Positions 43,101 through 64,000 of a DNA stretch of 64,000 nt are shown piece after piece. The notes beneath the pieces were generated by a model. It worked only from the letters and a program-made list of their open reading frames with translations. It did no database searches and was not told where the DNA came from. This DNA is from Sphaerolaimus hirsutus. Taxonomy: Eukaryota > Nematoda > Chromadorea > Monhysterida > Sphaerolaimidae. The stretch is from positions 9,809,832 through 9,873,831 of the forward strand of contig OZ038458.1 in the NCBI GenBank assembly GCA_964036195.1, written 5' to 3'. The position numbers and the translations under genes are program-made. Position 1 is the first letter of the stretch, and the number at the start of each line of letters is the position of its first letter.

Positions 43101-46100
43101 TGCAGCACGCAAAACCTTCGCTAGTGACCGACGGATGCGGGAAACTTTTGAATGCATAGGGAACACCCGCAGATGGCAATAAGCTCATTTAAAATGCGAT
43201 GCTTCTAATTTATGCATTGCGGGAGCAGTTGCGATGCGACCGATGTACGTGGCTGACTCGATGCTATACAGCCGTCAAGGCGCACATTTCAAATATATTT
43301 GATGCGTAATAGATACACCAGCGTGATGAATGGCGTTCAGTTTCAGTGATGTATGCATTCAAATATACAACATTGTTGTCTCAAATTTCTGCGTAATTAA
43401 GATGCTGAAATGCGAATTGGTGCCTTGCCGGAACGACCCTGTGCCGGTACTTATGTAGACCCGTTACTCAAGTAATTCTACCCATTACATATGTATACCC
43501 GCTACTCATATACACCACCCCCACAGCTTGCAGACGCTGAAGGTGTGTATGTGTATTTACACATGCAAATCAAAATCTTAGATTTGCACATGAATATTAC
43601 AAATAAATACATCATAAATATTACAAATACTTACATCATAAATAATAAATATTAGGTGGAAATGCTGGACTAGTGTTTTTAAATATTTGTGCAATTTGAA
43701 AATTTCCATTAGCATAAAAATTCATAGATATTTCTGAATGCTAGTGGGAAATTTCGCACTAGTGATTGTAAATATTTATGTATTCATGTGAAAACGAAAT
43801 AAATTGGTAGCGGGTATAGATACATCATGAGTAATGGGTCGAATTACATGAGTAACAAGTCTACATGGGTAACGGGTTTACATGAGTAATATTTCAGTCA
43901 CGGGAACTTCAGGGACTCACCTAACTAATCACATATTTTAAAATGGACATTTCATCAAAATTTATCAACAAATAAAACGAAGCACAGCCAACCTGCAACT
44001 CTTGCAGGTGTTTCTGGGCCACGTCCATGTAAGCAGGTTGTTCAGCGAGCACATTATCCAGCGCCTTCTCGGCATCGCCAAGTCTATCCATCAGCGTGTT
44101 AGCCTCGTCTGTGAACTCTTCCACGGCTGCCTTACGCGCCGCCCAGTCAGCGGACACATTTCTGGATTTGTCACGCACAGCGGACAATTGGTCAGCCAAG
44201 GGGGAGTGCTCGAGATCGGGCTGTTTCGTCAGCTGTGAATTTGAGGGCACGGTTTATGATAGGTAACTGTTCTGGAAGCCCAACGACAACGCTTTAGTGC
44301 TGCACGAAAAAATACACCCGGCAAATCCAAATAAAATAAAATAACAAGTTTCACAACTAATTTTTTAAAGATTGCTCCTTTGTGAATTTTCTAGGTTTTT
44401 CTTCAACATAAATACATTTGTGTTCGCCATGAAACGGGAAAAGATCGATATATATATATATATATCAACGTGCCAAGACACCAAACCGACCTCCTTCAAT
44501 TGGTGCAACATCGCCTCGACCGGCTCAAATGCACCCTCTTTGGGGGCGGTGCACTCATCTGACGGCTGCCAATTTGTGTTGTTATCCAATGAGTTTTTGG
44601 CTTCGTCCGCAGCCGCATTCAACTCGTTCAACTGGTCGGCAATGGCGGCACGCAGGGCGTCGCACTGAGCGCAGCGAGATGCCCGCCCGCGGATGGAAGC
44701 GGCGCAGTTCTGAAGGGGGTTGTTTGTGAAACGGAGTTTTACTTTTGATTCGACTAATTTAGGCTTTTTTGTTTTATTGTTTTTCATCTCCCAGATATGG
44801 CGAACCCTGGTTGCAATCCCAAGCCCTGTAAAGTAAAGTGTCAAATTTAAAGTCAAATGTAAAGTAAAGTGTCAAATGTAAAGTCACGTGTCAATGGTGT
44901 ATCCAAATATTATGTTCTTATTTCTGTCGTATTGTCGAAAAATGAGATTTGGACACAAAAACATAAGATTTGGATACGAAAAATATAAGATTTGGATACA
45001 CAATTAACTCATTTACATTTGCATGACAATTGACATTTGACTTTACATTTGACACTTTACTTTATACTTTACATTTGACACTTTATATTTGACATTTGAC
45101 TTTGCATTTGACTTTACATTTGACACTTTACTTTGGTTCTTAGTAATTGATGTGATCTATCCAGGATCTGAAAACAACTTAAATCCTATTGACAAAATGT
45201 CTCGCAAAAAAATCCAACCTGAACAGCGTCATCAGCATCGGTCTGTTTCTGTCTCAAGGGTTCCAACTTTTTGGCTTGAGCTTCGGAACCAGCCGAATCG
45301 CACAGTTTTTTAACGCCTTGTGCGCAAGTGTCCAGCTGATCATTGAGTCTATTCAGTCGGTCTTCACAGTCGTTCAGCGGGACATTTTCAGCCTCTGAAT
45401 CCGATTTGAGGTCATTTGCAGTCTTGATCACATCGTTCAACGAGTCGGACAGGTGCTTCAAGTTGTCGTTGAACTGTTTCTGGTTGGACAGCTGCGCCTC
45501 TGCCTCGGCGCGCTTCGCCAGCACGTCGTCGTATTGCGACTGGAAAAATGGCAAAAATAATCGGTAACGGGTGATAAAATGGGTCGCAAAATGCGCCCAC
45601 ACACTAGTTGAACATCAAAATTCGTGTCAACTAAATTCGATTATATTTTGTGTTATTAAGTCCACATTCAGTTGACATTTATTGGCGATGTCAACTAGTG
45701 TGTGTGGGTTAACAAAATTCAAGATGATAGAATTCAAGATGCCATTTATCTCACCTGCATTTGGTCGGCAGTGGAGGGATCACCATTCGCCCTCAGCGCA
45801 GCGATTAACTGAGCCAATTTCTGTAGTCGTCCATCAAGGTCGCCATCGGGCTGGTCGGCAGCGGCCTCTCCATCGTCGGCGGCGCGGGCACTGAGCGCCT
45901 CCACGACGCGCCGCTGCTCGAAAATCTGCTCGTCGGCCTGCCGCAGCAGTTCGTCGCGTTCGTGTGCGCGGCCCAGCGCAGCGTCGGCGGCGATGGCGGC
46001 TTTCTGCAAAGTGAATAGCCGTCATGCTACTGGGAAGAAATGCGAGGGGGGCATAAAAATCAATTATGGCGGCCTCACGCACATCTAGTTGCTCGCCGAC

Positions 46101-49100
46101 CCGAGCCAGAGTGTCCTCCATGTCCCCGATGTGTTCCTTCTGCGCGCGGGTGATATGCGGCAGCTGGAACAGCCGTTGCAGCGCGTCGCCGAGCTCGTTG
46201 CACTGCTGCTTGAGAGCGGCCACTTTGTCCATGTGCGCTTGGGCTGAGTCCACGGGCGCGGGCTCGTCCATTGGCTGCAGCACGGCGGCCGTGTCGTCGC
46301 TCAACTTGGCCACGCTCGGCTGCAGCCGTGCTATCTGCTGCTGCAGCTCGCTTTCGGCTCGCAGGGCGTCCTTACGCGCGGCCTCTAGTGCCGCGTTCTT
46401 GTCGCGCACGCGCTCCAGTCCAGACTGCGGACGAGTGGTGTTTATAAAATTGGCAACATGTGACAATGTTTTTATTATATTCAAATGAATAATTTACATG
46501 TTCAACTATGGTTTGTCTGCAATCAGTGAACTGCTGTTCTAAATACTGACTCTGCGCACTTTTTACAGCCGAGAATGTGAAACTGATAAATACGCTTTGA
46601 AAGCATTTTAGTTAACCGAAATGAGAAGTCCGCCAACCTACTGCTACTATTGATCGATAATGTTCAATTCAGGTAAGAATCGCGCGTCATTTGACAGGGT
46701 TCCATCACCAACTCAAACCATCCCCAAAAAATAGTCAACAGCACCAAACAGTAAAGCGGCGTTTACACGGTTTGTGTGCCGTCAAAAAAAAAACGAGTGA
46801 AAAAGTTCCATAATTCCGTAATAAAGTTCCATATCTGCAAGGAAAAACACTGAAGTATACTCACTAGTTAAGTGTACACACATGCCAATTTGCAGATAAT
46901 TTGCGCCTGTCGTTCAAGACTTGAAAGCAAATTACACTTGTCGGTTCGGTTTCAAAACGAAAACCGAACCGACAACTGTAATTTGTTTTTAACTCGTGAA
47001 CGACATGCCCGAATTATCTGCAAATTGGCATGTGTGTATACTCAACTAGTGAGTATACTTCACTGATTTGTCTTGCAGATACGGAACTTTATTGTGGAAT
47101 TATGAAACTTTTTGTTTTCTTTTTTTGTCGGCACAAAATGCAGTGTAAACGCCGCTTAACATAATCATGCGTACACACCTGCAGTTCATCAGCCAAGCCA
47201 TCACCCATTTGCCTAAGTTGATCAACGCCTTCTTGCACCTGCGCAAATGCGCCATCATCAACGGGCGGCAGCACTTTGTACCATTCATCCAAGGCGCCGC
47301 GCGCCGCCGCCAACTCCTCCACCATGTTGGCCAAATCTGCGAGCTTTTCCTGGGTGGAGCTGCGCAGCGACTCTGTTCGCTCGGCTTGCTGCAGTTGAGA
47401 TTCGGTCGCCTGCTGCTTGGCCTGTGATTGGTTCGGGTGAGATGCAAGGTGAATGTGGATGCAAAAGTTCAAGGTGGACCTAGATTTTCGGGCAAACGGT
47501 TGGATACCGTATTCTTTCTTATAGAACGCCATATCTCCAATAGTACGGCACCTCCAATAGAACGGCAGGTAACAAAAGTGGTGGAAAAATAGAACGGCGC
47601 TCTTCTATTAGAAGAAATACGGTAATTTGATACCAGAAAAGTGGACTCGCAGTCGGTCAGTTCGTCGTAATTGGAGCACACGCAATACGACTATTTTGAC
47701 CAGCACAGCTGGACATCGTCAAAATGTAGTCACACTCATACATTTGTTTTGAACACATTTGAGTTTTCAAAATGAATTATTGTTGAAATTAATCTAAATG
47801 AACTATAGTTGACGGCTGTCCCTATTCTGGCAAACTCATACGTTTTAAAAACAGATTCAAGAGTTTCTCAAATTTCGCTGGTGCACTATATTAGTAAAAA
47901 ATGTGCGTGGAAATACGCAACAAAAATGTCCACAAACATTGAGGCGGTCGGCCAAATCCCTGTGCTGGTCGTGTATTTGATTGGCTTTTTCCACGTTGGG
48001 TTTGGCCGCAACGGCACGTTCTGAAGCGCCGGACAGCATATCTTTCAGTTTGCTGGCAAGTTGGTCCAATCGCACGCGCCAACCCTGAAAATGAAATACG
48101 TGTGAAATGGCTCAATGGCGCACCGCACACTCAAAATTTTCGAGGGCGGTTCGAACGTTTTTTAGTTCCGCCAAGGCGGAACTCCAAGTGCGGTTCGAAC
48201 GTTTTTTTTAAAGGATTTTTGGGGCATTTTTTCGACATTCGAACAAATTCGAATGGAGTCCGGACGAATTGACCTGAATTTGTACACTTCTTGTGCATTT
48301 GGGTGTCATAACATTTTCACGCAGTAAGTTTCAAAAAAATAGGGACAGTTTCAATTCCGCCCTTGACTTTTCAATTCCACCCATTAGAGAAGGTTGAAGA
48401 AGAATACAAATCTTACTTATCTTTCCAAATATTTTTGTGAAAATTGTTTTATGGGTACATCTCAGCATAATCTTCAAAAACCAAGAGAGAAAAATTCATG
48501 TGAAATCCACTCATTCTAAAGATTTGTATTTTGCGTGGTGCATATTTGTGTAAACAGAAACTGAATTCCACCCTGGTAGAAAGTGTCCGTATGTTTTCTT
48601 GCCTAGATGGCATACCGCACACTCAAAAGAGTGCGGACGTTGTTCAAACGATTTGCGCTTTCCGCCCTTTCCGAATTAATTCCGCCCCTGCACAATTCAA
48701 GGCAATTCCGCCATGAGTAAAAAGAGTGCGGACGTTGTTCAAACGCTTTGCGCTTTCCGCCATTTCCGAATTAATTCTGCCCCTGCACAATTTGAGGCAA
48801 TTCCGCCATCGTCAAAGTGTTCGAACGTTTCATGTGCGGAATTGAAATCGAGGGCGGTTCGGACGTTTTTGAATTCCACCCCCGATTTTAATTCCGCCCT
48901 TGAAAAAGTGTTCGAACCGCAACTGAAAATTTGAGTGTGCCGTGCGACAATGACATGGAAAACTAAAATACTCACGTGGATATTATCCAGATCAGCTTTT
49001 ATAGCCGCCACCCCAGAACCTGGCTCTTTGCCAACATCTACAGATTCCGTCGGCGGTGACTTTTCCTTCTTGCCCTTCTTTTTCTTTTTCCCTTTGCGCC

Positions 49101-52100
49101 CATCAGAAGGTGCGGCAGCTTCACTCGTCGCCGGAGTTGCGATGCCGGAAGTGACGTCATTCTCCAACGTGTCGGTGTCTGCTCTAAGCTGAGACAGATC
49201 GTCGGACAGGTGGGTGATCTCGTCGATCAGTTTCGAGCAGTCCTGTTGGAAAAAAAGGGTTTGGAGGAATAAGTGGATTAAGGATAAGGAAGTGTCTTTG
49301 GATACACTTTACAGAAAAAATCCTCGTGTAAGCGACGTTAGAAAAATGAAACCCTAGACTAATTCATCCATCTGACAACAGATAAATTGGTAGCGAATCT
49401 TCACCGTCTAATGAAAAACAGTCCCGTTTATTTTCCGTCTTCAAAAAGTCCGACAAAAACAACAAACAATGATGATTACCTTGATTAACTGATCATCGTT
49501 GTCAGCCATCGCGTTCAGTTCGTTTACACGCTCAGACTGCGCCTTGAGTTCGCTCGCTTTCGGCGCCAGTTCAGTAGCGATAGTATTTTTTACTGAATTG
49601 AGGTCGTTGGACATCCGTTGCACATTTGGCGGCAGATCGGCAACCGGGATATCTTTTGCAGCGTCGGGGAATTGTTGAGCGTCATTTTCGATTTGTTTCA
49701 AGCGATCGGCGCACTCATTTGCAGTGTTTCTGAATGCGAACGCGCGGGCCTGGCGGTCGGCCCTGAGAACATTGGGAGTTGGTTAATCATATAAAGTGCC
49801 TACACACTAGGGATGGCCAAAAAATGTTTTTTTAACGACCCTGTTTGTTTGTTTGAAAAAGACGGCAAAAAAACACACGTGCCATCCCTACTACACACAT
49901 TAGTTTTTACCGTGACTTCTGTGAAAACGGAAAAAATTTCAAATGAAAATTTATCAACACGGTTGAATGATTGTGTTTTGATTTAAATTTGAAAGTTTTG
50001 ATTTATTTTATTTTATTTAAAAACTAAAACACATATAGTATACAATAAGAGTAGGCTGGATGTCGCCATGTCGCCACTTCAGTTTTCACCACGTCATGGT
50101 GAAAACTAGTGTGTGTAGGGCCAGCCACGGTAAAAACTAGTGTATGTAGGGCCAGCCACGGTGAAAACTAGTGTATGTAGGGCCATTATAAGCAGTTTTA
50201 TAATTCGAAATCAAACACAATTTTATAATGCAACTGGCAACTCAACCAACCATCTATTCTTCAAATCATCGGCTTCCCTCTTCACATCATCAACAACCGC
50301 GCCCAACTGCGCAGCGGCCGGTTCATCAACATTCCTCAACTGATCGAGCAGTTCACCAGCTTTGGCAAATTCCTTGTCGCCGGCTGCCGGGCACTCAGTT
50401 TCAGGAAGCCACGACTCCGACAGCATGGCGTCGTTGCCGGTCTGCAAGTCGGCGCGCATGTCCGCCAACAAGTCGGACAGTTTCTGCATCAAATGGCCGG
50501 CCAGGTCTTGCTGTTCGCGGCGCGCCGCCAGCGCTGAGCGGCAGTCCTGAAAGGGACATGGAGAATGGGGTCAATGATTGGCCCTGTGCCTGTAGATATG
50601 TAACCCGCGCGACATGTAGGTAAAATATAGATGAAATAGGTATATGACCACGTATATATCCCAATATTGCGATTTAGGTGAAAATGGACAAAGTGGAAAA
50701 AATCGAGTGAAAATACAGAAAAAATCGCTCAAAATTTGCTCCACGTAAATAGATACACAGCTGAGCGATTTTTTGTGGGGAGGTGCTCAAGGAAAGTAAC
50801 AAAAAAATTGCATCAGGATAGATAGATAGCTGGCCGATTTGGGGGGGGGGGAGGGCAGCCCATTGGATACATGTCGAGCGGATTTACATGTTAAGGGGGC
50901 CTACGTCCAATGAGTACCCTATGTGGAAATTATGTAAATTCATGTCAACCAACATCCAGCTGCTGCTTGACGCCATCTTTGAGTCGGTTCAGTTCAGCAA
51001 CTTTGCCTGCCTGTGCATCATTCTGTGCCATCGGTGCGAGCTGGTTTACCGTGTCATCCCCTTCAGCAAGTTTTCCGGCCAAGGCATCAATATTCTTGTC
51101 GCATTCTTCATTGGGCACATTGCCAATTGACGCGAGTATGTGCTGGCCAACATCCTGAAGTGGGACCAAAAACTCAGCGCACTTTCTGTATGCATCGTTG
51201 AATTTTCTCTTTGCTGCCAGTTGGTCAAGTGCTGCTTGGCGCTTGCCCCTCAGAGAATCGAGTTCACCCTGAAAATAGCACAAGCATGAAACCAACGAAT
51301 GAGTGGAGCGCATACTTTGCGCAGAATCCTACCAAACATTAACGACTAAAATCTTGTGATAAGTTGCGTAGTTTATCATTCCATATTGTAAAAACGAAAT
51401 ATTATGACGAAAAAAACTATCATTTTCGTTCATTATTCAGATTGGTTATGGTACGTTTCCATACCAAGTGTGATGTCCGTCTAGTACAGGGAAAATCCAT
51501 CAAAAAATCATGATGAGAAGAGAACTATAATTTTCAATAATCACGAACTTGTAAATTATCAGCACCCTGCGGGTCCCCACTGGATCTGATTTCTTCAATC
51601 AATTTGGCCACACTTTTATCCTGTCCATCAAGCTGTCCACTGGGCTGCTCGGCCTCATCCCCGACCTCATCGGCATTAGCGACATCAGCCAACTCGGCGA
51701 CACCTTGATTCAATTGGGATAGCTGATTAGCAGCTTCAGAGTGCAGGTCGGCTAATTTGCGCGAGTTGTCCAGGGCGGATGAAACGGAATTTGAGGCATC
51801 CTGCAGCGAAAATAGCCATTTTAAATACTTAAATACTATAAAAATTGCGGCAATCCTTGATTAGTTGTCATCCCAATGTATTTATAAAAATGTAATTGAA
51901 AACTCAGCATTCAAATCTGATTTGTGAGTTTTTGAAGTTTCAGTGCAGGCACAATAGTGATTTTTGTTATTTTCTTCAATACAGGATGTAAATGTGACAA
52001 TTTTAAAGAAAGTGCATCATTCATGCATTATTTTTACCGTCCGTTACATTATGTAACTTACATATAGGGTTCAAACGGGATCCCGATCCCGATCCCGGAT

Positions 52101-55100: not shown

Positions 55101-58100
55101 TTTAATACGTGAATTACATGAGTTAACAGAATGCATTCATACAATGAATCAAGTCCAAGTTTTCTGAAGAAAACTTAACTCCATTAAAAACGCTGACGAA
55201 AAAATTACTCCCCTGGGGAATTATTTGAGGATATACGGTAAAACCGTTTTTGAAAGACCCCTAGTTGCGTTTTGATTATAAAACCCTAAACTATCCCTAA
55301 ACGCAACAACGGCAATTGAAAAAATCATCACCTCTCTCTGCTGTGCAGCTGCATCGTTTCCAGGAAGCTGCTTGAGCTGTGCGAGGCATTCTGCCACATC
55401 ATTCACACCACTTGTGTCCACATCGAACGCGGTCGGTTCCCCAGACGCCAGCTTCGTGTCGAATTGGTCTAGCGCCGACTGCAAGTTGTCCAGGTTTCGA
55501 TCGATTCTGCCCAATAACTCGGCTGATCTGTTGGATTGATCGACGGCAGCGGCGGCCGCGCCGCTGGCGACCTGTGGCCGAAGGTTTTTTATATTTTATT
55601 GCCTAAACAGGATTTTTCAACAATCAAAAATGTAAAAAGTGAAAAACAGACATCCAGTGCTTTCTCCGCATCGGCCAGCTGTCCATTCAAGCCATCGATC
55701 TCTGCCTTCTGTTTCTTGGTCGCCGGCATGTCAGCGGTTTGGGCAAGTGCACCCTTCGCAGCGTCAAGGTCACCCTTCAAGCCATTCACCCGCTGAAGGT
55801 GTTTGTCAGCCTCATCGACAGAGTTGGCAAATTGCCCAGCGTCGGGCAAAGCGTTGACGTCATTGCACACCGCGTCACAGCGGGGCCGTAGTTGATCCAA
55901 CAGCGCTTGCAGTTGGCCCTCGGCGTCTTTGGCTGCCTGGCGCGCATCTTCCACGCGTTTGTTGCGATCGCACAGTTCGGTATACACGCCCTGCGATAAA
56001 ATGATAATGACGTGGGTACATGACGGGTACGTAAAGACGTCTGCACCGTCTGGGGGGGGGGGGGGGGTCTGCACCGCGGTGGGGGGGTTTTTGCTGTAGC
56101 GGGTTTACATGATAAGTAGAGTACATAACGCCGGCCGCAGTGCGTGTGCACTCACATTGCTTGTGTAAATACGTGCACACGCACTGCGGCCCAGGCTAAG
56201 TACACTACTTATCATGTAAACCCCCTACCACTAACCCTTGTTCTGTGCTAACCCACCTAAAATACATGACTGGCAGGTTTACATAACGTCAACGTAAATA
56301 ATGTTACAAGTAAAACTACTCGAAGTAAAAGTGCACACCAAACAGAATGCACCCACCGACAAATCTTCGGCATTATCGCCGAGCCCTTTCAAAGCATCCA
56401 AATCCTTCTGCACAGCGTCGAAATACTCGTGCGGCACGGATTTGGCGCTATTATGCCAGTTGTCATTTTTGGTCGCCTGCTCCAATGCCTCGACGGCGGC
56501 GGACAGGCCGGCCAAGTTGTCGGTGACGGATTCGCGCAGCGCGTGCACATTGTCCACGTGCGCCCGTTGCGCCGCCAGCGCACTCTCCAGCGACTGCGTT
56601 TGAGGATGTGCGGATGAGTATGTGCATGCAAAATGCAGGGTTGGCACGATGTGTAACATCGAAAAACGCATAGAATCATTTTCATATTTCGTCATTTTTA
56701 CAGTGCGATGCTCGTTTATCAGGTTTTTTATGCAACACTACTAAGCTGGGGCCAGTTCCGTGAGAAGTGAAATGGTCAGTGAGAAGTGAAATGGCAAAGG
56801 CGAAGAAAAAGTACAAAGGCGAAGTGAAACGGCAAGTGAATTGGTAAAAGCGAAGTAAACTATAAAAATAAAAAGTAATTTATCTTCGCTTTTGCCATTT
56901 GACTTGCCAATTCCCTTCGCCTTTGCGCTTTTACTTCGCCTTTGCCATTTCACTTCTCACTCCTCGTTTTGCGGAAACTGGCATCTGATCTCCAATATGA
57001 TCAAACCAACATATCGATACCATGATTTTTCGCTTCTTTATTTTATTCCGAGCGTACTTAAAATACAAACTTACAAAACCCATGACACAATTCAAACTCA
57101 CATCCAATTCGTGGCCGATATTCTCGTGCTTGGCACTCAAATCATGGTTACTATCCGCATTTGGCTGGTAGCGCATAGCTGGCTCACTGGCGCCAGCCAA
57201 AACAGCACCCTGCTGATCGATCAAATCAGACAGTCGGTCGCGCCAGCCCTGCAATTGAGTCGACTCGCGGTCGAGCTGCTCCGGGTCGGGCATGGCGGCC
57301 GATTCTTGGTCGGGTTGGCCGCGCGGCGTGTTCTCAATGTCACTCTGAAGTAGGATATAGCAGGATAGATATGTTTAGAGAGGTCACATGCAGTGTGTTT
57401 TTACGGGGCGGGGGGTTGTGAAGCTTTTTACAGTGGACATTTCTTCACGTCGATTCTCTAAAAATATCCCAAATACATTTTAATGTAAATATTTACTTTA
57501 AGACAATGCTTACAATTTGTGATAAATTTATTTGTGAATATTTTGACCCTAGACAGACTCATTGACAGCCGAAATTTCAAAATATGATAACCCTGTATTT
57601 AACACATTTGAGTACGCTGGAATGAGAATTCCGCCGGGCCGACTACTTTTGACTACTTTTTGAGATCAAAAATGAGTTTGGTCTACTCAAAGTGTTGAAA
57701 AGAAGTTCATTGGCTTCGGCTTTATGTAATTTCGGTACCCAACTATTTGGTGCATATGTAGACACAAGGGAAATCTAGCAAACCTGTAGATCGTCGGTCA
57801 AAGCATGCAGATTAGCCAGCTGGTCACCCAAAGAGCGCACCCCAGAAACACCGTTGTCGCCCGCCTGGGAATTTGGATAATCGACAATTTCCAACCGCCA
57901 GTTCGGTTTATGTGGCAAAACGCAAACTATCAGGTGGCAAGAAACGCTGCAACTAACAAAAAGTTTCAAAATTTATCAATTTGGCAACTATATTGTTGTA
58001 ACAAGCTTTTTTGGTTTATTTCTTGTCAACTGAATCAAATATTGCCACTGGATATGCACCATGAGAACAGTGGAAAGATGAATGCTTCATCAAACCAAAA

Positions 58101-61100
58101 AACGTCAAACCTCAATGCTTTTGGCGGCTCTGTCAAACGCCTGCTTGACCTCAGCAACGATGTCCTTCTGTTTCTGCGTCTCAGCCATCGGTTCCAACAC
58201 ATCGATTATCTTGCATGGCTCAATCAAATCAGACTTCAACCTGAGCAGCTCACTATCGATCTGCTCATTTGGCACGTTGCCAATTGTCTGGTTGGTTTCA
58301 TTGGCAGCGCGTTCGATGTCTGCCAATTTCTCGGCGCACTGCCTCGCCTTGTCGCTGAAGTCTCTGCCGCGCTGCAGCTTGGATCGAGCCTCATTTACCA
58401 GTGCTGTGATCTCGTCCAAACGAGCCTGGTGGAAGTAAAGTATTTATGATTTGGGTAAAAATACTAGAGATTTTGATTGGTGGATCAAAAAATGGAATTT
58501 CTATTAAAACTACCTACTCAGTGAAACAGCAGACAAATCGTCACCAAATGCAGGGACGTATCCAGGATTTTTGAGCGGGGGGGGGCTGCTTGTTTACAGA
58601 GCTCCGCGAACGGGGGGGGGGGGGCTCAGCCCCCCCTCTAAAATTTTACCTACAGAGTGCCGGAATGGCGCCATAGCGCCATGGCGCTGGCGCCTTTACT
58701 TGGCGCCGTGCCATGGCGCCATTGGCGTTGGCGCTGGCGCCATGAAACGCTGTATATGTATGCAAATATACAGCGAAAAACCATGCCGTTGAATGTATTT
58801 AAGATGTTCTCGGGCTACAGCGAACAATAAGGTGATAATACTGCTTACGTAGAGTAAAATGCGCGCTTGCGCGCAAAATTTTTGAAAATAGCATGAAAAA
58901 GTTGTAGGAAAAGTTGCATTTCCCAGTATTTTTTGGTCTCACCCCGGGAACGGGGGGGGGGGCTGCAGCCCCCCCCCCCGCCCCCCCCCGGATACGTCCT
59001 TGACCAAATGTACCGTGAAATAAATATGGAATTAATTTGCAATTAGCCTTCTAACGTATTGATTTGAATGCCGGAAAAGAATCCCACCACACAACGACAT
59101 CAGCTTATATTCTAAAAAAGCTAAATCGACCACCGACCTGTCTGTCATCGGCACCGCCTCCATCGCCCTCGCCCCTCAACTGCGCAATCAAGACGGCCAC
59201 ATTCTCAAGGGGCTCGTCGAAGTTGTAATTCGGCACCAGACCCGGCTCATCAGACATGATGCGCTGGTTGAAATCGGTAGACAGTCGCTTCTGCGCCGCC
59301 AACTTGTCGTCGATTTCGTTGCGCAGAGCGGCCATCCGCTGCGCACGCGACAAATGCTGCTCAGCGGTCGATTTTGCAGCCTGCAACCGCGATAAAGGGG
59401 CTTGGAAATACACGGGATAAATTGAACGTTCGAGATGGCCACAATTGACATGGCCACAATCGAACGTGTAAAATAAAGTGTCAAATGCCAAGTAAAACGT
59501 CAATTGAAATAAAGAAGAAAATATATTATTACTGAACTTAAGACATTTGCTCAATATGGATGACAACACATTACTTCACACTTTACAGGGTGCGGGACTG
59601 CTGCATTGGTACACTAGTTGTATGCGCACCCAAAGCTTTCATCCAATTTCATCGAAGATTGGGATACCGTATTACCTCGAATTACCCTATTCCCTTGAAT
59701 TAACCCCCCCCCCCAAATGGGCTAGGGAAATTACATCAAGCATACATGATGTATTTATTACTACTAATTTGCATTGCAGCTACACTTATACGCTCATTTC
59801 TGTACAGATGTACATCTATAGCCCCAATATAACCTATTTTCACGCGTTTATTATCTTTTTTTGTGTATGAAGAAGCGTATTCTTTACTATGAATTTCACT
59901 AAAAATTTCTGACGAAATAACCCCCCTCGAATAAAACGGGGCAGGCCTGATACGCACATCTGCCTGATACGCACACTTGCCCGTTTTTTTTACTTGACAC
60001 TTTTTCAAGTGATTTTCAGATATGAGTAAAGTGGAAAAAAGTTGCACAATGACATAAGTGAACTTTTTTCACTTCACTCATGTCTGAAAATCACTTGAAA
60101 ATGTGTCAAGTGAAAAAAACAGTGAAAAATAGCCGTTTTTCACTGTTTTTCACTTGACACATTTTCGAGTGATTTTCAGATATGAGTGAAGTGAAAAAAG
60201 TTCACTAATGTCATTGCGCAACTTTTTTTCACTTGACTCATATCTGAAAATCACTTGAAAAAGTGTCAAGTGAAAAAACGGGCAAATGTGCGTATCAAGC
60301 AGATGTGCGTATCAGTGCACCCCCGAATAAAACACCCCTCAAATTGTGCTGGCGAAATAATAAACACCCATGGGGGCATTTCGAGGGTATTAGGTATGTA
60401 TGTAGTGTACTTCTACATCCATCAACTATGAAAAACACTCGCGCACCTGCAGCTTCGCGTCAATGTCACCGTGCTCTTGTGCGAGCTGTTCGAATTCGGG
60501 TTTGTGTGCGGCCGATCCGGGTTGGGAAGACACATCGCGCAGGCGCTCCTGCAGCTGGCCCAGCCTCGCCTGCAGCACTTGCACAGCATCCAGGTGCTTC
60601 GCCTGCGCGTCGATGTCCTCGGGCGAACTGGGCGCCTGCAGGTTGTCCGCCTCCGCTCGCAGCTGCGCCGTCTGCGCCTTCAAATCCTCAATCTGCGGCA
60701 CGAGTTTTGAGTCGGCGTCTTTGCCAGCCAGCAGCGCAGCTTGCAGCTCGTTGTGCTTCAACTTGACTGCCTCAAATTCGTCCTGCAGTGGTTGCATAAA
60801 TAATGATTGGATCGAAAAAGTGGCATATCGACTAATGAGACCAACATTGACGTCCTTGTCGTCGCCGCCCACCTCCTTCAGGTCGTCCAGCTTGCGGAGG
60901 ACATCGTGGAACGCCTCCTCGTGGACGGGCTCCCTGGCCAGGAACCACACGTCCGGGTCGTCGTCCTTCGCCTGCGCCAGGGCAGCGACCGCAGCCGCCA
61001 GCGCCCCCAGCGACTGCTTGGCTTGGTCCAGCAGACCCGCCTGTCGGTCGGCCAGGTCCAGCGACGCTTGCGTGCTCGCCGACAGTTTCTGCAGTGCAGT

Positions 61101-64000
61101 TGGCGAGTTGTCAGTGGATTGTGTGAGAAAGTGGCAGCGACAAGACATGGGACTCACGTCGAGCTGCTGCGCGACATCGCCGATCTGTGCGCGGATGGCG
61201 TCTGCCCTCTCCACGTTGACTGGGGCGGAAACTGCGTGTTCGGGGCTCGCCGCCAGCTCGTTGTTCAGCTCGTCACCCAGGCCCGACAGTGCAGAGCGCC
61301 AGCCCTACGCGCACAGAGTTACATAAAGCACTGTAATATACTGTATTTAAAGGTAGAAATGAAAAAATCAATTTGAATTACATCGAGTCCATTTTAGGGA
61401 ATAGCGTCCATTTCTATGGAATGGCACTAATGATGCCAAATTTGTGCCATGTTTTATGGAATAGTGTTAGTGACACCAATATCGTTATATAATGGCACCA
61501 GTAGTGACACCAAGGTAAATAAATTTTGATGAACTTTTTGCTGTGACTGGCACCAACCATTCCACATAAATATATGGTGTGATTTCGGCAGCACTGGTTC
61601 CATTCCATACAAATAATGCAATTTTGGCATTACCAGCGCAATTGCATAAAAATGGCGTGATTTTTGGCATCATTGGCACCATTCAATAAAAATGGCACAA
61701 TTTTCTGCATCACAACAGCCATTCTAGACAAGTGGCGCAATTTTGTACTCACTGATGCCATGTAATTCAAGTTGAGATTCAAATGAAAATTCACCCAAAT
61801 GTCATTGATGCACACATGCAAACACGGATGAAATATTTCCCACAAATTTGCAAAAGTGCACGCAAATCTATCGACATGTCATACACATGGCCAGAATTCT
61901 GGCCACATTGGCCAGCCACATGATTGTAATCAAGGAAAATGTAGAAAAATTTATGGGACTTGTGATGGTGTTGTTTACTCAAAACATGCCCCCTAACTGC
62001 TGAAACCTATGTCAAAGTTTACGGTGGAATTTTGAAAAAATCCATAAAAATAATGAAAAAGGAAACCTATGACGTTTCGGGATCAAACTGCTGATCTATA
62101 TCCAGCTGAAAGACAGACCTGTATCTTGTCTAATCGGGATTTGAGCTCATCTGGGTTCAATTTGTCAACTTTTTGACCTGCTTCGGGTGATTTTTCTTTC
62201 TTGCCTTTCTTTTTCTTTTTACCTTCTTTAGGCTTTTCATCCGGTGCCGCTGAGAATTCCGCAGAGACTTCTTGCTGAAGAATGTGAAGCACACTTGTAA
62301 AAAACATTTAAATGGGAACAGGGTAACAAATGGCTAATATTATAGCATTACCATACGCTAGGATTTGCTAAAACCATTTTTGGAACATGGGGACCATTGG
62401 AAAGACTGTTTTTTTACCGAGCCAATGCGCTGATATTAGAACGGATCTATTTCCAAAGACATCTGACCGATTTTTGTATTAATTGTATTTTTGACTAAAC
62501 CTAGCAAAACAATCGTGAACTATTTTCTAATGAAAAACATAAAAACATATCCTCTTGATTTCGACCTTCGATATTGGATATAAAAATCGATTCATGATAC
62601 AATTCGTCAAAACGCTTTACCGCAGTCTTCATAACTCCGCCCAGAACCGACCTCCAAACCGAGCAGTTTCTCCTTGAGGCCATCCAACCGCTGCCCCAAA
62701 TTGGCAATCGCCTCCAGTTTGGCATTCAAATCATTCAACAACTGCCGCAGGCGATCGCACTCGGCCCAGCCATGGTCCAATTGACCCTGAATATGTTAAA
62801 ATAACATGTGGTATTGAGTTTTACTTTGTGAAAATATCGAAAACTAAGCAATGGTCTAGTAAAGGGGGCACCCGTAGACCACTTAAGTGTAGATATATGG
62901 AGCTCAAATCTTGTTTGGCTACGATCCTAACCCCCGCCCCCAATCGGCATGCTGTCTAGTTACATGGAGCGACATTGAAGATTTACTTACGTAAATTTTC
63001 GCTCAAAATCGCCGTTTGCATACCTTTTACCCATTTTTAACTTCAAAATCATTAGTTCACGTACATAATTGCCTATACTGCAGGGGTTCATCTAAATACA
63101 ACACCACTGAAGCTAGAAACCGACCCGTCTGTCGCTGGCGCCGCCGTGGTCGCCCAGGTCGCGCAGCTGCGGCAGCAACTCGGCCGCCTTGTGCAGCGGC
63201 TCGTCGAAGTCGGGGCCCAGCTGCAAGCCGGGCTCCTCGGCGGCGACGCGCTGGCTGAGGTCGTCTCTGAGCTGGCTCTGCTTGGCCAGCTGGCCGTCGA
63301 TCTCCTCGCGCAGCCCGCCGATGCGCTGCGCCCGCGACAACTGCTCCTCGCTCGCTGCCTTCGCCGCCTGTGTGGGGTCAAATACCAGAGGTATTTAAAG
63401 TCGCACGGAACACTGAAACATTTGATTCCGTATATGGAAGTTTTTCGATTACGATTCGAGTGTGATTTCGATTGATCGATACATGGCACCAATAACATCA
63501 TGGAAAATGGAAAATCATGGAAATTTAGAGCCCAGCAGGAGTAGTAGTAACACTATGATATCATTTTCATTTTGAGAGATTTCCTAAGATTATTTTTAAT
63601 TACATGTTCTGAATATCAACCATTATTTTCAATGCCAGGTGCGGTGCATACTAGCAGAACGAACTTACTTACAACGAGATTTCCGGCTGAAATTTTCCGG
63701 CTGTCTTTCATATGCTTAAATTTACGATAGTAAAAATTGTATGCCAACCCCACACGCACCTGCAACTTCGCGTCGAGGTCACCATGCTCTTGTGCGAGCT
63801 GTTCGAATGCGGGTTTGTGTGCGGCCGATCCGGGTTGCGCTGACACATCGCGCAGGCGCTCCTGCAGCTGGCCCAGCCTCGCCTGCAGCACTTGCACAGC
63901 ATCCAGGTGCTTCGCCTGCGCGTCGATGTCCTCGGGCGAACTGGGCGCCTGCAGGTTGTCCGCCTCCGCTCGCAGCTGCGCCGTCTGCGCCTTCAAATCC
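24152..64000 (-). CDS. anc-1: Giant nesprin/ANC-1-type KASH protein, C-terminal ~4950 residues, 64 exons visible
   Basis: One gene read right to left, 5' end beyond 64000. The protein tethers nuclei by spanning the outer nuclear membrane: its KASH peptide binds a SUN protein in the perinuclear space and its long spectrin-like rod projects into the cytoplasm. Sixty-four exons join with matching splice phases: minus-strand donors GT (plus AC), acceptors CAG or TAG, and no internal stop. Most introns are phase 0; the phased runs (50546/49762, 38113/37615/36939, 35901/35064, 34058/33657, 29617/29340, 27948/27387, 25998 to 24264) all restore the frame. The rod is heptad-like, Leu/Ala/Gln/Asp-rich, about 80-115 residues per repeat, with lysine-rich linkers. 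No actin-binding CH domains are in view; they would be 5' if present. Exon lists are in the sub-entries. The ANC-1 assignment rests on the KASH end; identity as ANC-1 rather than another nesprin is inference. Confidence 0.9.
24617..24844. mobile_element. CCGTAT-type MITE in the last intron of the nesprin gene
   Basis: Starts TACCGTATTCCCTCTAAATA and ends TATTTCGAGGCAATACGGTA, 228 bp with TA at both ends. It splits the transmembrane exon from the KASH exon. The rest of this intron shows no other feature. Confidence 0.75.
25158..25373. mobile_element. CACACTAGTTGACA-type MITE (intronic)
   Basis: GGCCCGCACACACTAGTTGACA at the left and the inverse TGTCAACTAGTGTGTGTAGGCCC at the right, about 216 bp. 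The interior (TGAACTAAATTTTGGTGATTT and later TTGACATTCAGTTGACAGG) is shared with 39440-39661 and the ends of 40669-41738. Confidence 0.75.
25384..26904 (-). CDS. anc-1: Nesprin neck: last helices before the membrane
   Basis: Exons 26776-26904, 26119-26274, 25920-25998 and 25384-25458. The first two are helical and end in basic/acidic stretches (KNVKLATEDRKQRYADLLKR), typical of the last spectrin repeat. The exon at 25920 continues ALNIDLQQKQAEAK and ends AEDYG. The exon at 25384 is a Thr/Ser/Pro-rich spacer (LTTVTETEAARPSS) leading to the KASH exon. Phases 0, 0, 1, 1 chain correctly into 25109. The 25458 acceptor is the least certain: it was chosen because CGACAG followed by AA completes a Glu codon in frame. 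Confidence 0.8.
26295..26726. mobile_element. TAGGGTTCAAACGGGAT-ended element filled with GGGATC repeats
   Basis: Starts TAGGGTTCAAACGGGATTG and ends with the inverse CCCGTTTGAACCCTA, 432 bp. Both flanking zones are nearly pure GGGATCGGGATT words. A unique centre at about 26440-26590 is shared, in inverse orientation, with the copy at 52065-52505. Confidence 0.8.
27192..30238 (-). CDS. anc-1: Nesprin C-proximal spectrin repeats
   Basis: Exons 30017-30238, 29400-29617, 29166-29340, 28621-28935, 27620-27948 and 27192-27387. They encode amphipathic helices rich in Leu, Gln, Glu and Ala. The 28621 exon has the LEWPRETLRQLESARDQL motif, resembling LDWPPQEVQRLQDKF at 33013 and the VQWPRRTAEQV stretch at 42286, so this W-P repeat type recurs along the rod. 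Phase-2 junctions occur at 29617/29340 and 27948/27387, each completing an Arg codon. High GC in the exons against AT-rich introns marks the boundaries clearly. Confidence 0.85.
27430..27606. mobile_element. Worn relative of the AAGCGGCGTTTACAC palindrome
   Basis: Shares GCGTTTACA, GTGCCGACAAAAAAAC, CTAGTGAGTATACTTCACTG and GGAACTTTATTCCGTAATTATGG with 46755-47158, in an intron. Confidence 0.65.
28017..28605. mobile_element. TTGACACTTTACA-type foldback MITE interrupted by a nested element
   Basis: Left part with CCCTATAAAGTGT and GTCAATTGTCATGCAAAAGTG, right part with TTGACATTTGACACTTTACACGG then TTGGCACC. Between them lies a 450-bp element (28091-28540). Together they fill most of one intron. 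Confidence 0.65.
28091..28540. mobile_element. Tc1/mariner (pogo/Tigger-like) MITE
   Basis: TA-flanked, with ends CAGTCGTCCCCGGGTTAACG and inverse TAACCCGGGGATGACTG. CAGTCRTCCC termini with a TA target are typical of pogo/Tigger-type non-autonomous elements. Repeated TTATCGGGTT/CCCCGCATT words lie inside. No transposase frame. Confidence 0.7.
29750..29915. mobile_element. TTGACACTTTACA-type foldback MITE
   Basis: CCCTGTAAAGTGTAATGTCAAG at the left and CTTGACTTTACAAGG at the right are inverse arms, within an intron. Related to 13695-13885. Confidence 0.6.
30293..31245. mobile_element. TATACTCGG-type element split by a hAT-like insertion
   Basis: The left end (GTATACCGTACTCCTCGTACCGCAAAG) and right end (GCATAGCGTGCGGTCTGCTGAGTAT) are worn inverses of the ends of 32692-32941 (TATACTCGGCGGACCGCA). 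A 683-bp element lies between. Confidence 0.55.
30427..31109. mobile_element. hAT-like MITE with 8-bp duplication AGTGGAGT
   Basis: Starts TAGGGTTGGAAAAAAAACG and ends ACATCGGCCAACCCTA. AGTGGAGT flanks it exactly at 30419-30426 and 31110-31117. Long AAAAAACGTTTTTT blocks lie inside both ends. No transposase is encoded. Confidence 0.85.
31273..33312 (-). CDS. anc-1: Nesprin rod with lysine-rich linker 1 (GGKKKKRKSR)
   Basis: Exons 33013-33312, 32208-32546, 31989-32132 and 31273-31755, all phase 0. The 483-bp exon at 31273 is the longest in view (161 residues, more than one repeat). The 32208 exon carries PEKGGKKKKRKSRDVEGS between two helical parts, a basic linker like those at 34860, 48976, 53793 and 62119. 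The 33013 exon is the W-P repeat type. The flanking introns hold TATACTCGG-type, hAT-like and CACACTAGT-type elements. Confidence 0.85.
31787..31949. mobile_element. CACACTAGTTGACA-type MITE (intronic)
   Basis: GGGCCCACACACGCTAGTTGACA and its inverse bound about 163 bp. The interior carries TTGACATTTGGTGTCGATGTC and GATCCCCATTCAAAGCTTGC, shared with 15303-15802 once the nested element there is ignored. Confidence 0.75.
32692..32941. mobile_element. TATACTCGGCGGACCGCA-ended MITE
   Basis: CTATACTCGGCGGACCGCACG at the left and TGCGGTCCGCCGAGTATACCC at the right are long near-perfect inverted ends, about 250 bp, inside an intron. A TGACGTCA word near 32745 is also present in the related copy at about 31183. 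Confidence 0.75.
33464..36328 (-). CDS. anc-1: Nesprin rod with lysine-rich linker 2 (KGKKKRGKK)
   Basis: Exons 36182-36328, 35522-35901, 34860-35064, 34343-34579, 33887-34058 and 33464-33657. The 35901/35064 junction is phase 2 and completes an Arg codon; 34058/33657 is phase 1 and completes a Gly codon. The 34860 exon has DELQSAIAAITDELKQIGR followed by PPSKGKKKRGKKDRDSKE, the same helix-then-basic-linker order as the upstream cassettes, so this part may be a diverged relic of the cassette array. Confidence 0.85.
35090..35375. mobile_element. TTGACACTTTACA-type foldback MITE
   Basis: The left arm, after TGGTGCCAATTCCAGACCC, has AAAGTAAAGTGTAAAATG and the right arm has TTGACATTTTACACGACG, then CTTGACAGGGTCTGGGACTG. 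A tandem TTAGCTATTTAACTGCTTT pair at about 35270-35310 lies inside. Confidence 0.6.
36377..36740. mobile_element. CCGTAT-type MITE (intronic)
   Basis: Starts TACCGTATTTCCTCGAATTG and ends TATTTCGGGAAAATACGGTA, 364 bp. It shares the conserved interior with 16498-16899. Confidence 0.75.
36759..40519 (-). CDS. anc-1: Nesprin rod, diverged spectrin repeats
   Basis: Exons 40352-40519, 39935-40126, 39723-39866, 39150-39413, 38628-38960, 38201-38380, 37909-38113, 37420-37615 and 36759-36939. Phases run 0 to 38113, then 1, 2 and back to 0 at 36759. Three successive exons start with SLQSDL, SLLSDL and SLAAKL after the splice site, a recurrent repeat-start signature. The 40352 exon is visible only in a frame without an early Met (AVEAAVCSPEMPDL), so it is easily missed. 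Confidence 0.82.
36975..37385. repeat. ACATGTAGACCCG-type inverted repeat element
   Basis: CTAGACATGTAAACCCGC near 36990 is answered by GCGGGTTCACATGTCTAC near 37357. Related repeats lie at 43440-43905, 50578-50915 and 56030-56285. All sit in nesprin introns and share TTTACATG next to GCGGGT words. Confidence 0.55.
38397..38590. repeat. TCGATATTCGATAT low-complexity repeat
   Basis: Dense CGATATTCGATAT words fill the intron between exons 38201-38380 and 38628-38960. Confidence 0.7.
39440..39661. mobile_element. CACACTAGTTGACA-type MITE (intronic)
   Basis: CACACACACTAGTTGACATC at the left and GATGTCAAATTGTGTGTGCGGG at the right, about 220 bp. The interior matches 25158-25373. Confidence 0.7.
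40669..41738. mobile_element. CACACTAGTTGACA-type MITE split by a hAT-like element
   Basis: Starts GGGCCCACACGCACTAGTTGACA and ends CGATGTAACTAGTGTGCGGGCT. Without the 848-bp insertion at 40763-41610 it would be about 215 bp, the same size as 25158-25373. Confidence 0.75.
40763..41610. mobile_element. hAT-like element with 8-bp duplication CACACTTG
   Basis: Ends CAGGGTTGGCAAAA and TTTTACTAAAACCAACCATG. CACACTTG flanks at 40755-40762 and 41611-41618. The interior is rich in AAAATAAAATAAAA near both ends, with a unique centre around 41130-41340. A worn half of a relative lies at 22560-22700. Confidence 0.85.
41857..44709 (-). CDS. anc-1: Nesprin rod between cassette array and diverged part
   Basis: Exons 44491-44709, 43993-44232, 42286-42600 and 41857-42111, all phase 0. 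The 44491 exon (NCAASIRGRASRCAQCDALR) ends with MLHQLKE and resembles the E-type cassette exon. The 42286 exon is the W-P repeat type. The 41857 exon is basic near its end (RKSKVDDRARNNLNRAHTAH). Introns here are long (42601-43992 is 1.4 kb) and filled with MITEs. Confidence 0.83.
42710..43026. mobile_element. Worn CCGTAT-type MITE (intronic)
   Basis: Starts TACCTTATTATCTCGCAATA and ends TTACTCAAGGAAATGCGGTA, with G-rich tracts inside. Confidence 0.6.
43440..43905. repeat. ACCCGTTACTCA/GAGTAACGGGT inverted repeat
   Basis: GTAGACCCGTTACTCAAGTAATTC on the left and ATTACATGAGTAACAAGTCTAC then GGGTAACGGGTTTACATGAG on the right are inverse arms. AT-rich AAATATTACAAATA words fill the centre. Confidence 0.55.
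44808..45145. mobile_element. TTGACACTTTACA-type foldback MITE (tandemly expanded)
   Basis: Multiple AAAGTAAAGTGTCAAATGT words on the left and inverse ACATTTGACACTTTACTTT words on the right. The centre has repeated AAGATTTGGATAC words. Confidence 0.65.
45219..46424 (-). CDS. anc-1: Nesprin cassette 5 (last, partial): exon types D, C, F
   Basis: Exons 46083-46424 (D, 342 bp), 45755-46003 (C, 249 bp) and 45219-45539 (F, 321 bp), all phase 0. D has SELQQQIARLQPSVAKLSDD and AVLQPMDEPAPVDSAQAHMDK. C ends with LDGRLQKLAQLIAALRANGD. F starts SQYDDVLAKRAEAEAQLSNQ. The same types with similar lengths occur in order in cassettes 2-4. The G/A/E part that would follow is not recognisable downstream beyond the E-like exon at 44491. 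Confidence 0.85.
45594..45709. mobile_element. Short CACACTAGTTGACA-type MITE
   Basis: CGCCCACACACTAGTTGAACATC and its inverse bound about 116 bp; a shortened relative of 25158-25373. Confidence 0.7.
46755..47158. mobile_element. Long palindromic MITE with AAGCGGCGTTTACAC ends
   Basis: TAAAGCGGCGTTTACACGG and GTGTAAACGCCGCTTA bound about 404 bp. Nearly the whole element folds back: TATCTGCAAATTGGCATGTG on the right answers CACATGCCAATTTGCAGATA on the left, and TCGGTTCGG and CCGAACCGA lie near the centre. A worn relative spans 27430-27606. Confidence 0.8.
47179..52972 (-). CDS. anc-1: Nesprin cassette 4: D-C-F plus two extra exons, G/A, A', E
   Basis: Exons 52631-52972 (D), 51549-51800 (C), 50954-51268 (F), 50251-50546 and 49480-49762 (extra pair joined at phase 2), 48976-49242 (G and A fused, with KGKKKKKGKKEKS), 47938-48084 (A', starting GWRVRLDQLAS) and 47179-47421 (E). 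The C exon has no Met and shares GQLDG...IEEIRSSGDPQGADNLQ with GDLDG...IAALRANGDPSTADQMQ of cassette 5. F carries SIGNVPNEECD, nearly matching TIGNVPNEQID of cassette 2. The extra pair adds about 193 residues not seen in cassettes 2 and 3. All lengths and phases keep the frame. Confidence 0.86.
47505..47624. mobile_element. Minimal CCGTAT-type MITE (TAGAACGG subfamily)
   Basis: TACCGTATTCTTTCTTATAG and CTATTAGAAGAAATACGGTA bound only 120 bp, with three internal CCAATAG(T/A)ACGGC words. Confidence 0.65.
48120..48943. mobile_element. Foldback element with CACCGCACACTCAAAATTTTC ends
   Basis: CGCACCGCACACTCAAAATTTTC on the left is answered by GAAAATTTGAGTGTGCCGTGCG on the right. The interior holds GGTTCGAACG and AATTCCGCCC words and a tandemly duplicated segment (AAAGAGTGCGGACGTTGTTC at about 48625 and 48719). 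It fills nearly the entire intron. Confidence 0.75.
49797..50174. mobile_element. CACACTAGT-type MITE with triplicated end and nested hAT-like MITE
   Basis: The left end CCTACACAC...ATTAGTTTTTACC is split by an 83-bp insertion. The right end is present three times in tandem (GTGAAAACTAGTGTGTGTAGGGCC and two near copies, 50098-50174). Confidence 0.7.
49808..49890. mobile_element. 83-bp hAT-like MITE with 8-bp duplication CTACACAC
   Basis: TAGGGATGGCC and GTGCCATCCCTA ends; CTACACAC repeated exactly at 49800-49807 and 49891-49898. Too short to encode anything. Confidence 0.85.
50578..50915. repeat. ACATGTAGG-type inverted repeat element
   Basis: GGCCCTGTGCCTGTAGATATG on the left and TTTACATGTTAAGGGGGCCTACG on the right. 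Internal GAGCGATTTT and CTGGCCGATTT words resemble 37080-37110. Confidence 0.5.
52065..52505. mobile_element. Second TAGGGTTCAAACGGGAT-ended element
   Basis: Starts TAGGGTTCAAACGGGATCCC and ends CAATCCCGTTTGAACCCTA, 441 bp. CCCGATCCCGATCC repeats fill both flanks. The centre (ACTTTTCTGGCATCCAACAG) is the inverse of that in 26295-26726. Confidence 0.8.
53290..55990 (-). CDS. anc-1: Nesprin cassette 3: D, C, F, G, A+A' fused, E
   Basis: Exons 55652-55990 (D), 55332-55571 (C), 54459-54779 (F), 54202-54282 (G, 81 bp), 53793-54122 (A and A' in one exon, with SKPKKGKKKKSKSKKE) and 53290-53532 (E), all phase 0, about 518 residues in total. In cassettes 1 and 4 an intron separates A from A'; here it is absent. 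D has KHLQRVNGLKGDLDAAKGAL; G reads ELRSTVDEMDSLAGALSDIK. Confidence 0.87.
54889..55241. mobile_element. CCGTAT-type MITE (GAATAAG subfamily, intronic)
   Basis: Starts TACCGTATATCCTTGAATAA and ends TTATTTGAGGATATACGGTA, 353 bp; closest to 14121-14541. It sits beside a TTGGAAAAAAACATTTTG fragment resembling the ends of the 30427 element. Confidence 0.75.
56103..56226. repeat. Near-perfect palindrome (GTTTACATGATAAGTAG arms)
   Basis: GTTTACATGATAAGTAGAGTAC is answered by GTACACTACTTATCATGTAAAC, and CGCAGTGCGTGTGCA by TGCACACGCACTGCG, leaving a loop of about 25 bases. It could form a strong hairpin. Confidence 0.8.
56357..60782 (-). CDS. anc-1: Nesprin cassette 2: D, C, F, G, A+A' fused without lysine linker, E
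   Basis: Exons 60447-60782 (D), 59138-59380 (C), 58111-58425 (F), 57784-57864 (G), 57102-57344 (A+A', GWRDRLSDLIDQQGAVLAGA) and 56357-56593 (E), all phase 0, about 485 residues. The lysine-rich block seen in other A exons is replaced by an acidic/Pro-rich stretch (TPRGQPDQESAAMPDPEQ). D is nearly identical to the exon at the right edge. C (EQHLSRAQRMAALRNEID) closely matches C of cassette 1 (EQLSRAQRIGGLREEID). Confidence 0.87.
56748..56985. repeat. AAGTGAAATGGCAAAGGCGAAG inverted repeat array
   Basis: GAAGTGAAATGG and AAAGGCGAAG words repeat on the left and their inverses on the right, bounded by GCCAGTTCCGTGAGAAG and GGAAACTGGC. A fragment of the same kind is at 54315-54425. Confidence 0.65.
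58551..59002. mobile_element. hAT-like MITE with 8-bp duplication ACCAAATG
   Basis: CAGGGACGTATCCAGG and CCGGATACGTCCTTG ends bound 452 bp; ACCAAATG flanks exactly at 58543-58550 and 59003-59010. Sister of 15334-15663, sharing the poly-G/poly-C stretches and GGCGCC palindromes. Located in a nesprin intron. Confidence 0.87.
59455..59615. mobile_element. TTGACACTTTACA-type foldback MITE
   Basis: AAAATAAAGTGTCAAATGCC on the left and CACTTTACAGGGTGCGGGACTG on the right. The left end is worn. Confidence 0.5.
59665..60396. mobile_element. CCGTAT-type MITE interrupted by a compound palindrome
   Basis: Starts TACCGTATTACCTCGAATTA and ends CATTTCGAGGGTATTAGGTA. The ACATGATGTATTTATTACTA interior is the inverse of that in 7009-7413. 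A ~370-bp TGATACGCACATCTGC-ended element is inserted at about 59946-60315. Confidence 0.7.
59946..60315. mobile_element. Compound palindrome with TGATACGCACATCTGC ends
   Basis: CTGATACGCACATCTGCCTG and its inverse CAGATGTGCGTATCAG bound the element. Within it four alternating TTTTCACTTGACACATTTTC / GAAAATCACTTGAAAA-type segments make nested hairpins. Confidence 0.75.
60846..64000 (-). CDS. anc-1: Nesprin cassette 1 (runs off right edge): D, C, G, A, A', E
   Basis: Exons 63760 to beyond 64000 (D), 63125-63367 (C), 62652-62786 (G-like, GQLDHGWAECDRLRQLLNDL), 62119-62274 (A, with KEGKKKKKGKKEKSPEAGQK), 61158-61304 (A', starting GWRSALSGLGDELN) and 60846-61088 (E), all phase 0. No F-type exon is visible between C and G, where only 338 bp of intron lie. 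Here G and A are on separate exons while cassette 4 has them fused. The upstream acceptor of the D exon lies outside the window. Confidence 0.86.
61425..61780. repeat. Degenerate GGCACCA/ATGCCA repeat in intron
   Basis: Words such as AATGGCACCAGTAGTGACACC, TTTTTGGCATCATTGGCACC and AAAATGGCACAATTTTCTGC recur at irregular spacing. No gene seen between exons 61158-61304 and 62119-62274. Confidence 0.5.

Follow-up and report, generated by a model that had tools for sequence, protein, structure and literature searches.

A multi-exon cassette in tandem, with signs of nested duplication, in the rod of a giant KASH-domain gene of the nematode Sphaerolaimus hirsutus

The locus and its host gene

The window, by which we mean the whole stretch of 64,000 nucleotides analysed here (9809832-9873831 of contig OZ038458.1), carries on its minus strand a long series of exons from a single gene. 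Genome sequence reaching 139.5 kb upstream of the window edge was added, with a 500-base overlap; coordinates above 64000 extend the window numbering into the genome. At the 3' end of the rod gene lies a KASH domain (PF10541; 24158..24268, minus strand), found at E 7.3e-7 in a genome search, where it is the single match across the whole genome, and at 9.3e-17 on the spliced tail, over the Pfam cut-off. Two CH domains (PF00307) are encoded on the same strand by the spliced stretches 149574-148842 and 147720-147462 (5.1e-11 and 4.5e-16, both over the Pfam cut-off); these sit about 85 kb outside the window, upstream, and are joined to the rod by exon-parser prediction.

The protein parsed from 143.5 kb down to KASH is a 12,199-residue model, with a long helical rod between CH and KASH and heptad periodicity in five cassettes (period 3.40-3.50, z 10.3-14.7). 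An earlier, sequence-only reading had labelled the gene ANC-1, a label that the CH and KASH domains bear out. Taken jointly with the history of nested duplication and conversion developed below, we think it likely that the repeated region is part of the rod of a giant CH-CH-rod-KASH protein, a nematode member of the ANC-1/MSP-300/nesprin-1/2 kind. As to the wider genome, it has 56 matches to the cuticle-collagen N-terminal domain, a mark of nematodes; a whole-genome search for the SL1 leader 22-mer at up to two mismatches, which skips very common words, found none, and the lineage may lie outside the SL1 users. The SL1 RNA family had no match either, and neither did its controls.

The exons of the repeated region are listed below in the order of the gene; numbers after the letters denote rounds (R1 to R5), and ‘own-type’ marks exons typed by own-type alignment and profile.

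63760..64000, minus strand: D1, cut by the window edge (the full exon extends to 64095); D of the fifth near-identical A'-E-D core
63125..63367, minus strand: C1 exon, last of five near-identical C exons
62652..62786, minus strand: X1, 135 bp, in place of F and G (exon alignment, array comparison)
62119..62274, minus strand: A1, lysine-rich linker exon
61158..61304, minus strand: A'1, start of the sixth near-identical core
60846..61088, minus strand: E1, sixth core
60447..60782, minus strand: D2, sixth core; protein 96% identical to D1
59138..59380, minus strand: C2, at the array edge; DNA 65-68% identical to the five near-identical C exons
58111..58425, minus strand: F2 (own-type)
57784..57864, minus strand: G2
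57102..57344, minus strand: A2, without lysine-rich linker
56357..56593, minus strand: E2 (own-type)
55652..55990, minus strand: D3 (own-type)
55332..55571, minus strand: C3 exon (own-type)
54459..54779, minus strand: F3 (own-type)
54202..54282, minus strand: G3
53793..54122, minus strand: A3, a single exon that holds A, A' and a lysine-rich linker
53290..53532, minus strand: E3 (own-type)
52631..52972, minus strand: D4, modelled as a three-helix bundle
51549..51800, minus strand: C4 (own-type)
50954..51268, minus strand: F4, modelled as a three-helix bundle
50247..50546, minus strand: extra exon of R4, E/C-like, nearest E; donor at 50251 or 50247
49480..49749, minus strand: extra F-like exon of R4, nearest F3; acceptor at 49762 or 49749
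48976..49242, minus strand: G and A of R4 in one exon, with lysine-rich linker
47938..48084, minus strand: A'4
47179..47421, minus strand: E4 (own-type)
46083..46424, minus strand: D5 (own-type)
45755..46003, minus strand: C5 (own-type)
45219..45539, minus strand: F5 (own-type)
44482..44709, minus strand: E5, closing round 5

Repeats of other kinds lie in the introns. Dispersed copies of a GATCCC-type short repeat occupy 52080-52490 in the D4-C4 intron; an R4 intron holds two 90-bp direct repeats, 94% identical and 95 bp apart (48625-48809); and in the D2-C2 intron a 55-bp sequence occurs four times, in register with its inverted partners (59985-60278), resembling a small mobile element or palindrome.

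Exon types, order and register

The sequence-only reading proposed that six exon types recur in one order and within narrow length ranges, as D-C-F-G-A-E, in four rounds and a partial fifth. Lengths and boundaries hold: with AG/GT junctions on the minus strand, D spans 336-342 bp, C 240-252, F 315-321, G 81, A or A+A' 243-330 and E 237-243, as returned by a home-made exon parser run without phase constraint. The uniform order does not, since D-C-F-G-A-E is exact in R2 and R3 only. Five rounds are present, such that R1 has no F, the 135-bp exon X occupying the place of F and G; R4 reads D-C-F-(E/C-like + F-like pair)-(G fused to A)-A'-E; and R5 runs D-C-F and then reaches an E exon (44709-44482) beyond the range first described, with no G or A found before it in R5. 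From its length and a weak similarity, X1 may be the start of an F joined to G. The first exon of the additional R4 pair (50546-49480) probably also carries the start of an F.

Self-alignment places the exon types in the proposed register. When 32 exons were aligned all against all, the best partner of each exon typed as D, C, F, A or E, 26 in number, belonged to its own type, and exon-type profiles give 112 minus-strand matches against none on the plus strand at E<1 over 143.5 kb. The D, C, F and E exons of R2-R5 yield full-length own-type matches of E 1e-27 or better, the same exons having built the profiles. A reading in which the six-part repeat reflects shared coiled-coil composition and a habit of exon length, with no common descent of blocks, draws on the readiness with which heptad proteins match one another (reversed sequences reach E 5.1e-5 against the cassette profile), but own-type choice, strand contrast, the strength of the type matches and the identity of D1 to D2 leave it hardly any credibility.

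Each of the 30 exons that run from D1 through E5 has a length divisible by three and is in phase 0, and blocks of whole-codon exons could therefore be duplicated in frame. Two junctions in this count were set by hand to the phase-0 alternative (exons 50546-50247 and 49749-49480, for which the parser preferred 296 and 283 bp). Homologues guided a manual correction of the ends of C2 and E1, and the boundaries of two fused A'-E exons were redrawn manually. Three predicted exons were discarded as spurious: 58749-58654 (in one run 58749-58700), 58585-58545 and 56068-56039.

History of the rounds and of the cassette

Rounds R1-R5 are 17-41% identical to one another, save for R1 and R2 in D and C; for this pair, identity falls from 96% in D to 53% in C, 32% in E and 26% in A, a drop which implies that D2 has been overwritten or is a later copy than the rest of its block. 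A common tree, ((R1,R2),R3,(R4,R5)), is rejected by no exon type in AU topology tests (p: D 0.355, C 0.91, E 0.27, F 0.43, A 0.81; F and A on four rounds) and is the best tree for the joined data, with bootstrap values of 100 for R1,R2 and 61 for R4,R5. The sequence-only reading had looked to a tree per exon type for agreement, and this came out in part: no type rejects the one tree, but the trees that fit D, E and F best on their own depart from it, resolution is lacking for E, F and A (and essentially absent for F and A' alone), and the C exon data tolerate trees that separate R1 from R2. Tree agreement is thus weak evidence for block duplication, the case for which is supported mainly by exon order and type, and less by trees; what is observed is the same ordered exon set tandemly repeated inside one gene.

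A further, older duplication appears within the cassette itself. In profile comparisons, D-C against GA-E gives P 2.7e-10 over 138 columns (reversed control 0.002), and C against E gives P 4.3e-7 (reversed 0.09-0.1); the five best non-own matches of the C profile are E exons, and those of the E profile C-type exons, in both cases above reversed and shuffled controls. On these comparisons C and E are clearly paralogous. The signal for D against GA alone is weaker (P 1.1e-4, reversed 0.09), and the A profile counts against this kinship, as it scores 15.0 bits on its best reversed control and 13.4 bits on its best D match. Overall, the cassette reads as (D-C)-F-(GA-E), with D-C homologous to GA-E. 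D and F were also considered as close paralogues and rejected (profile P 3.4e-4 against 3.7e-4 reversed).

Growth of the rod by duplication of a multi-exon block, as first proposed, is supported by type register and order but is incomplete as an account, given the separate history of D2, the older D-C/GA-E duplication and the position of R1 as the tail of an array. As we read the sequence, three ages of duplication are nested: within the cassette, among cassettes R1-R5, and in that near-identical array.

A near-identical array at the window edge

R1 cannot be treated as an ordinary round: together with D2 it forms the end of a six-copy near-identical array that continues past the window edge to about 92.3 kb, in window numbering, and lies mostly outside the window. 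Its unit is a 420-residue cassette without F, X-A-A'-E-D-C, with a spacing of 420 residues five times over. The array has A', E and D six times (DNA identity 94.6-98.8%) and C and X five times (94.1-100%); the outermost C (C2) and X drop to 65-70%. The A exon occurs in two types, of four and two copies, with 63-71% identity across types.

Genome-wide, array E finds its own six copies and one place on contig C1 (43%). Array D finds its own six copies and a lone D-like reading frame on contig C3 (13121982-13122263, 37% identical), which has a lysine-containing stretch near the linker position of the A exons. Scattered fragments similar to exons of the rod gene lie on contig C1 at 16532749-16632748 in an order unlike that of the main gene; among them are a C, an E and a partial D, along with further ones that reach 61% identity to far-upstream rod exons. 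This region looks like a decayed, rearranged copy of the rod gene. It also contains a block of about 5.5 kb, introns included, in tandem triplicate at 97-99% identity.

Gene conversion and its alternatives

Most exons of the array are near-identical between copies, and its long introns barely align. Among the long introns, 6 of 15 pairs align for D-C, 7 of 15 for X-A and 10 of 15 for A-A'; the aligned part covers 11-20% of the shorter intron and has K 0.18-0.21; the short A'-E and E-D introns align in all 15 pairs each (K 0.06 and 0.12). Mean dS is 0.11 for A', 0.06 for E, 0.12 for D, 0.04 for C and 0.07 for X, and reaches 0.38 in the A exon (four type-I copies), which sits between two long introns. 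Across the six copies of A'-E-D, splits conflict within 900 bp, incompatibility affecting 366 of the 666 pairs of informative sites, and the PHI test gives p 0.009, 0.0045 and 0.012 at 60, 100 and 150 bp, near sites conflicting less than shuffled ones. Such conflicting splits fit patchy overwriting, and a single recent duplication does not easily produce them; together with the identity patterns, they point to gene conversion among the array copies. Counting against this, the PHI test loses significance at 250 bp (p 0.80).

We suggest that the array copies arose by tandem duplication, early enough that their long introns have since drifted or been replaced, and that later conversion between copies would have held the A'-E-D and C-X stretches near-identical. 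The array could instead simply be recent, whole genomic blocks having been duplicated lately, with introns that differ only through insertions and deletions. D-C introns ranging from 392 to 8278 bp are as expected from insertions, the triplication on contig C1 indicates that such events happen in this genome, and recent copying with fast intron turnover would yield part of the pattern. Yet K in the aligned long introns exceeds dS in A', E, D, C and X (0.04-0.12), the A exon is both divergent and of two sequence types, and splits conflict inside 900 bp; we accordingly give a purely recent origin a modest, minority chance.

Strong selection on protein and codons could also hold the copies alike without conversion. 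The means of dN/dS, computed without C2, X0 and the two type-II A exons, are 0.03-0.15 for A', E and D, and GC3 is 0.766 in the array (0.95-0.96 in its C exons) against 0.638 in R2-R5. However, the same exon types in R2-R5 are only 17-41% identical, the non-coding A'-E and E-D introns are alike as well, and dN/dS is 0.75 for C; richness in GC3 fits biased conversion as well, and could come from it. Selection in place of conversion is, on this evidence, improbable. The C and X exons appear to be under little constraint, given dN/dS of 0.75 and 0.40, a point that counts against the conversion account too. An assembly artefact, to which near-identical tandem copies often give rise, is more improbable still, for every copy is flanked by long introns of its own length and sequence, so that reads are placeable, and the array sits in a 26-Mb contig. 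Conversion among older tandem copies is hence the reading we prefer.

Fold of the cassette and the lysine-rich linker

Structure prediction models the D and F exons as one three-helix bundle each: D4 with helices at 2-48, 58-86 and 93-113 (pLDDT 91.3, pTM 0.76), and F4 with helices at 2-47, 53-80 and 84-104 (pLDDT 93.1, pTM 0.77). Loss of F would remove about one bundle. For comparison, a canonical spectrin repeat is an antiparallel bundle of three helices and some 106 residues. Of the 30 Pfam families listed at E<=1 on spliced R2, R3 and R4, no one passes its own cut-off, spectrin families included, SR_plectin_7 reaching 13.1 bits against a cut-off of 27. Foldseek comparison of the D fold with the PDB gave no match at E<=0.001, its best matches being generic bundles (plectin repeats 5-6 rank 41, E 1.0), and D by sequence gave 21 weak PDB matches (best E 0.018; dystrophin 0.38). 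The one PDB match to the D4-C4-F4 sequence, an ATPase homologue at 5.1e-5, was set aside as a coiled-coil match.

A lysine-rich linker in the A exons occurs 15 times in the 12,199-residue model, against a shuffled mean of 0.23 windows; R2 and R5 are without it. Its spacings (774, 871, 550, 488, 528, 420 five times, 1003, 713, 1651 and 417 residues) dispose of any strict periodicity. From the D-C/GA-E alignment and the D4 model, the linker would sit roughly at the position of the loop between the first and second helices of D.

Linkers of the same kind also occur beyond the recognisable cassettes, two downstream (32303, 34967) and five upstream (95730-119727, window numbering). A clear extension of the cassette along the whole rod was rejected, forward matches to the cassette profiles upstream and downstream reaching 3e-5, against 5.1e-5 for reversed and 7.4e-5 for shuffled sequence. 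Outside 92-44 kb most cassette-profile matches are no better than reversed sequence; the sole clear match there, 35613-34022 (3.9e-11 against 8.8e-5 for its best reversed match), contains a lysine-rich linker.

Discussion

Synthesis of these observations suggests a model in which each cassette would add a few three-helix bundles and, mostly, one lysine-rich flexible linker to an extensible tether, presumably one that spans from the nuclear envelope or ER membrane to the cytoplasm. The linkers may act as periodic docking sites for acidic partners, and so offer a concrete place to seek binding partners of the rod.

We also speculate, tentatively and with the balance still against it, that ANC-1 rods renew themselves: a linker-bearing cassette of helical bundles would be re-amplified and homogenised by conversion independently in different nematode lineages (420 residues here, 903 in C. 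elegans), with selection holding the number and sameness of cassettes and not any one sequence. Were this so, cassette number and sameness would be selected, perhaps because they determine how long the tether is and keep its linkers evenly spaced. So far, no history has been visible in the near-identical repeats of C. elegans ANC-1. In the present gene, duplications of old, intermediate and young age lie side by side, with introns to date them, which makes tether growth and repeat sameness testable. It would also be a warning that genes of this sort, even with an old architecture, may owe the number and identity of their repeats to recent events.

Among the literature matches listed, which leave subscription journals mostly uncovered, none dealt with ANC-1 repeat history outside C. 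elegans, and searches on nesprin exon duplication and on ANC-1 concerted evolution listed nothing on ANC-1 repeat evolution beyond PMC8139857. According to that source, C. elegans ANC-1 has six tandem repeats, nearly identical at the nucleotide level, in a helical rod; the repeat is 903 residues long and lies 277 residues before the membrane span, and the repeats matter for anchorage, a single one being insufficient. The present gene is alike in being a CH-CH-rod-KASH giant with six near-identical tandem copies (here of A', E and D). It differs, by size and position as described there, in having a 420-residue unit of six exons, and an array lying some thousands of residues from KASH.

Nesprin-1 and -2 are described in PMC3646009 as having 74 and 56 spectrin-like repeats; their rods string together many diverged three-helix units, a good number of which Pfam fails to recognise. 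The rod described here would be of that general kind; unlike theirs, it brings no spectrin family over the cut-off in R2-R4, and what repeats in it is a cassette of several exons that includes a lysine-rich linker.

Two further systems bear comparison. In the triplicate region of human nebulin an eight-exon block stands in three tandem copies (PMC9109913); as there, a multi-exon block is repeated in tandem within one giant structural-protein gene, whereas here the copies number six, their exons are near-identical, their long introns barely align and older, diverged copies of the same exon types adjoin them. Spider silk genes likewise keep the repeats inside a long structural gene alike, through intragenic homogenisation, but silk repeats are short and of low complexity, and those of the S. 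hirsutus rod are folded helical bundles spread over many exons.
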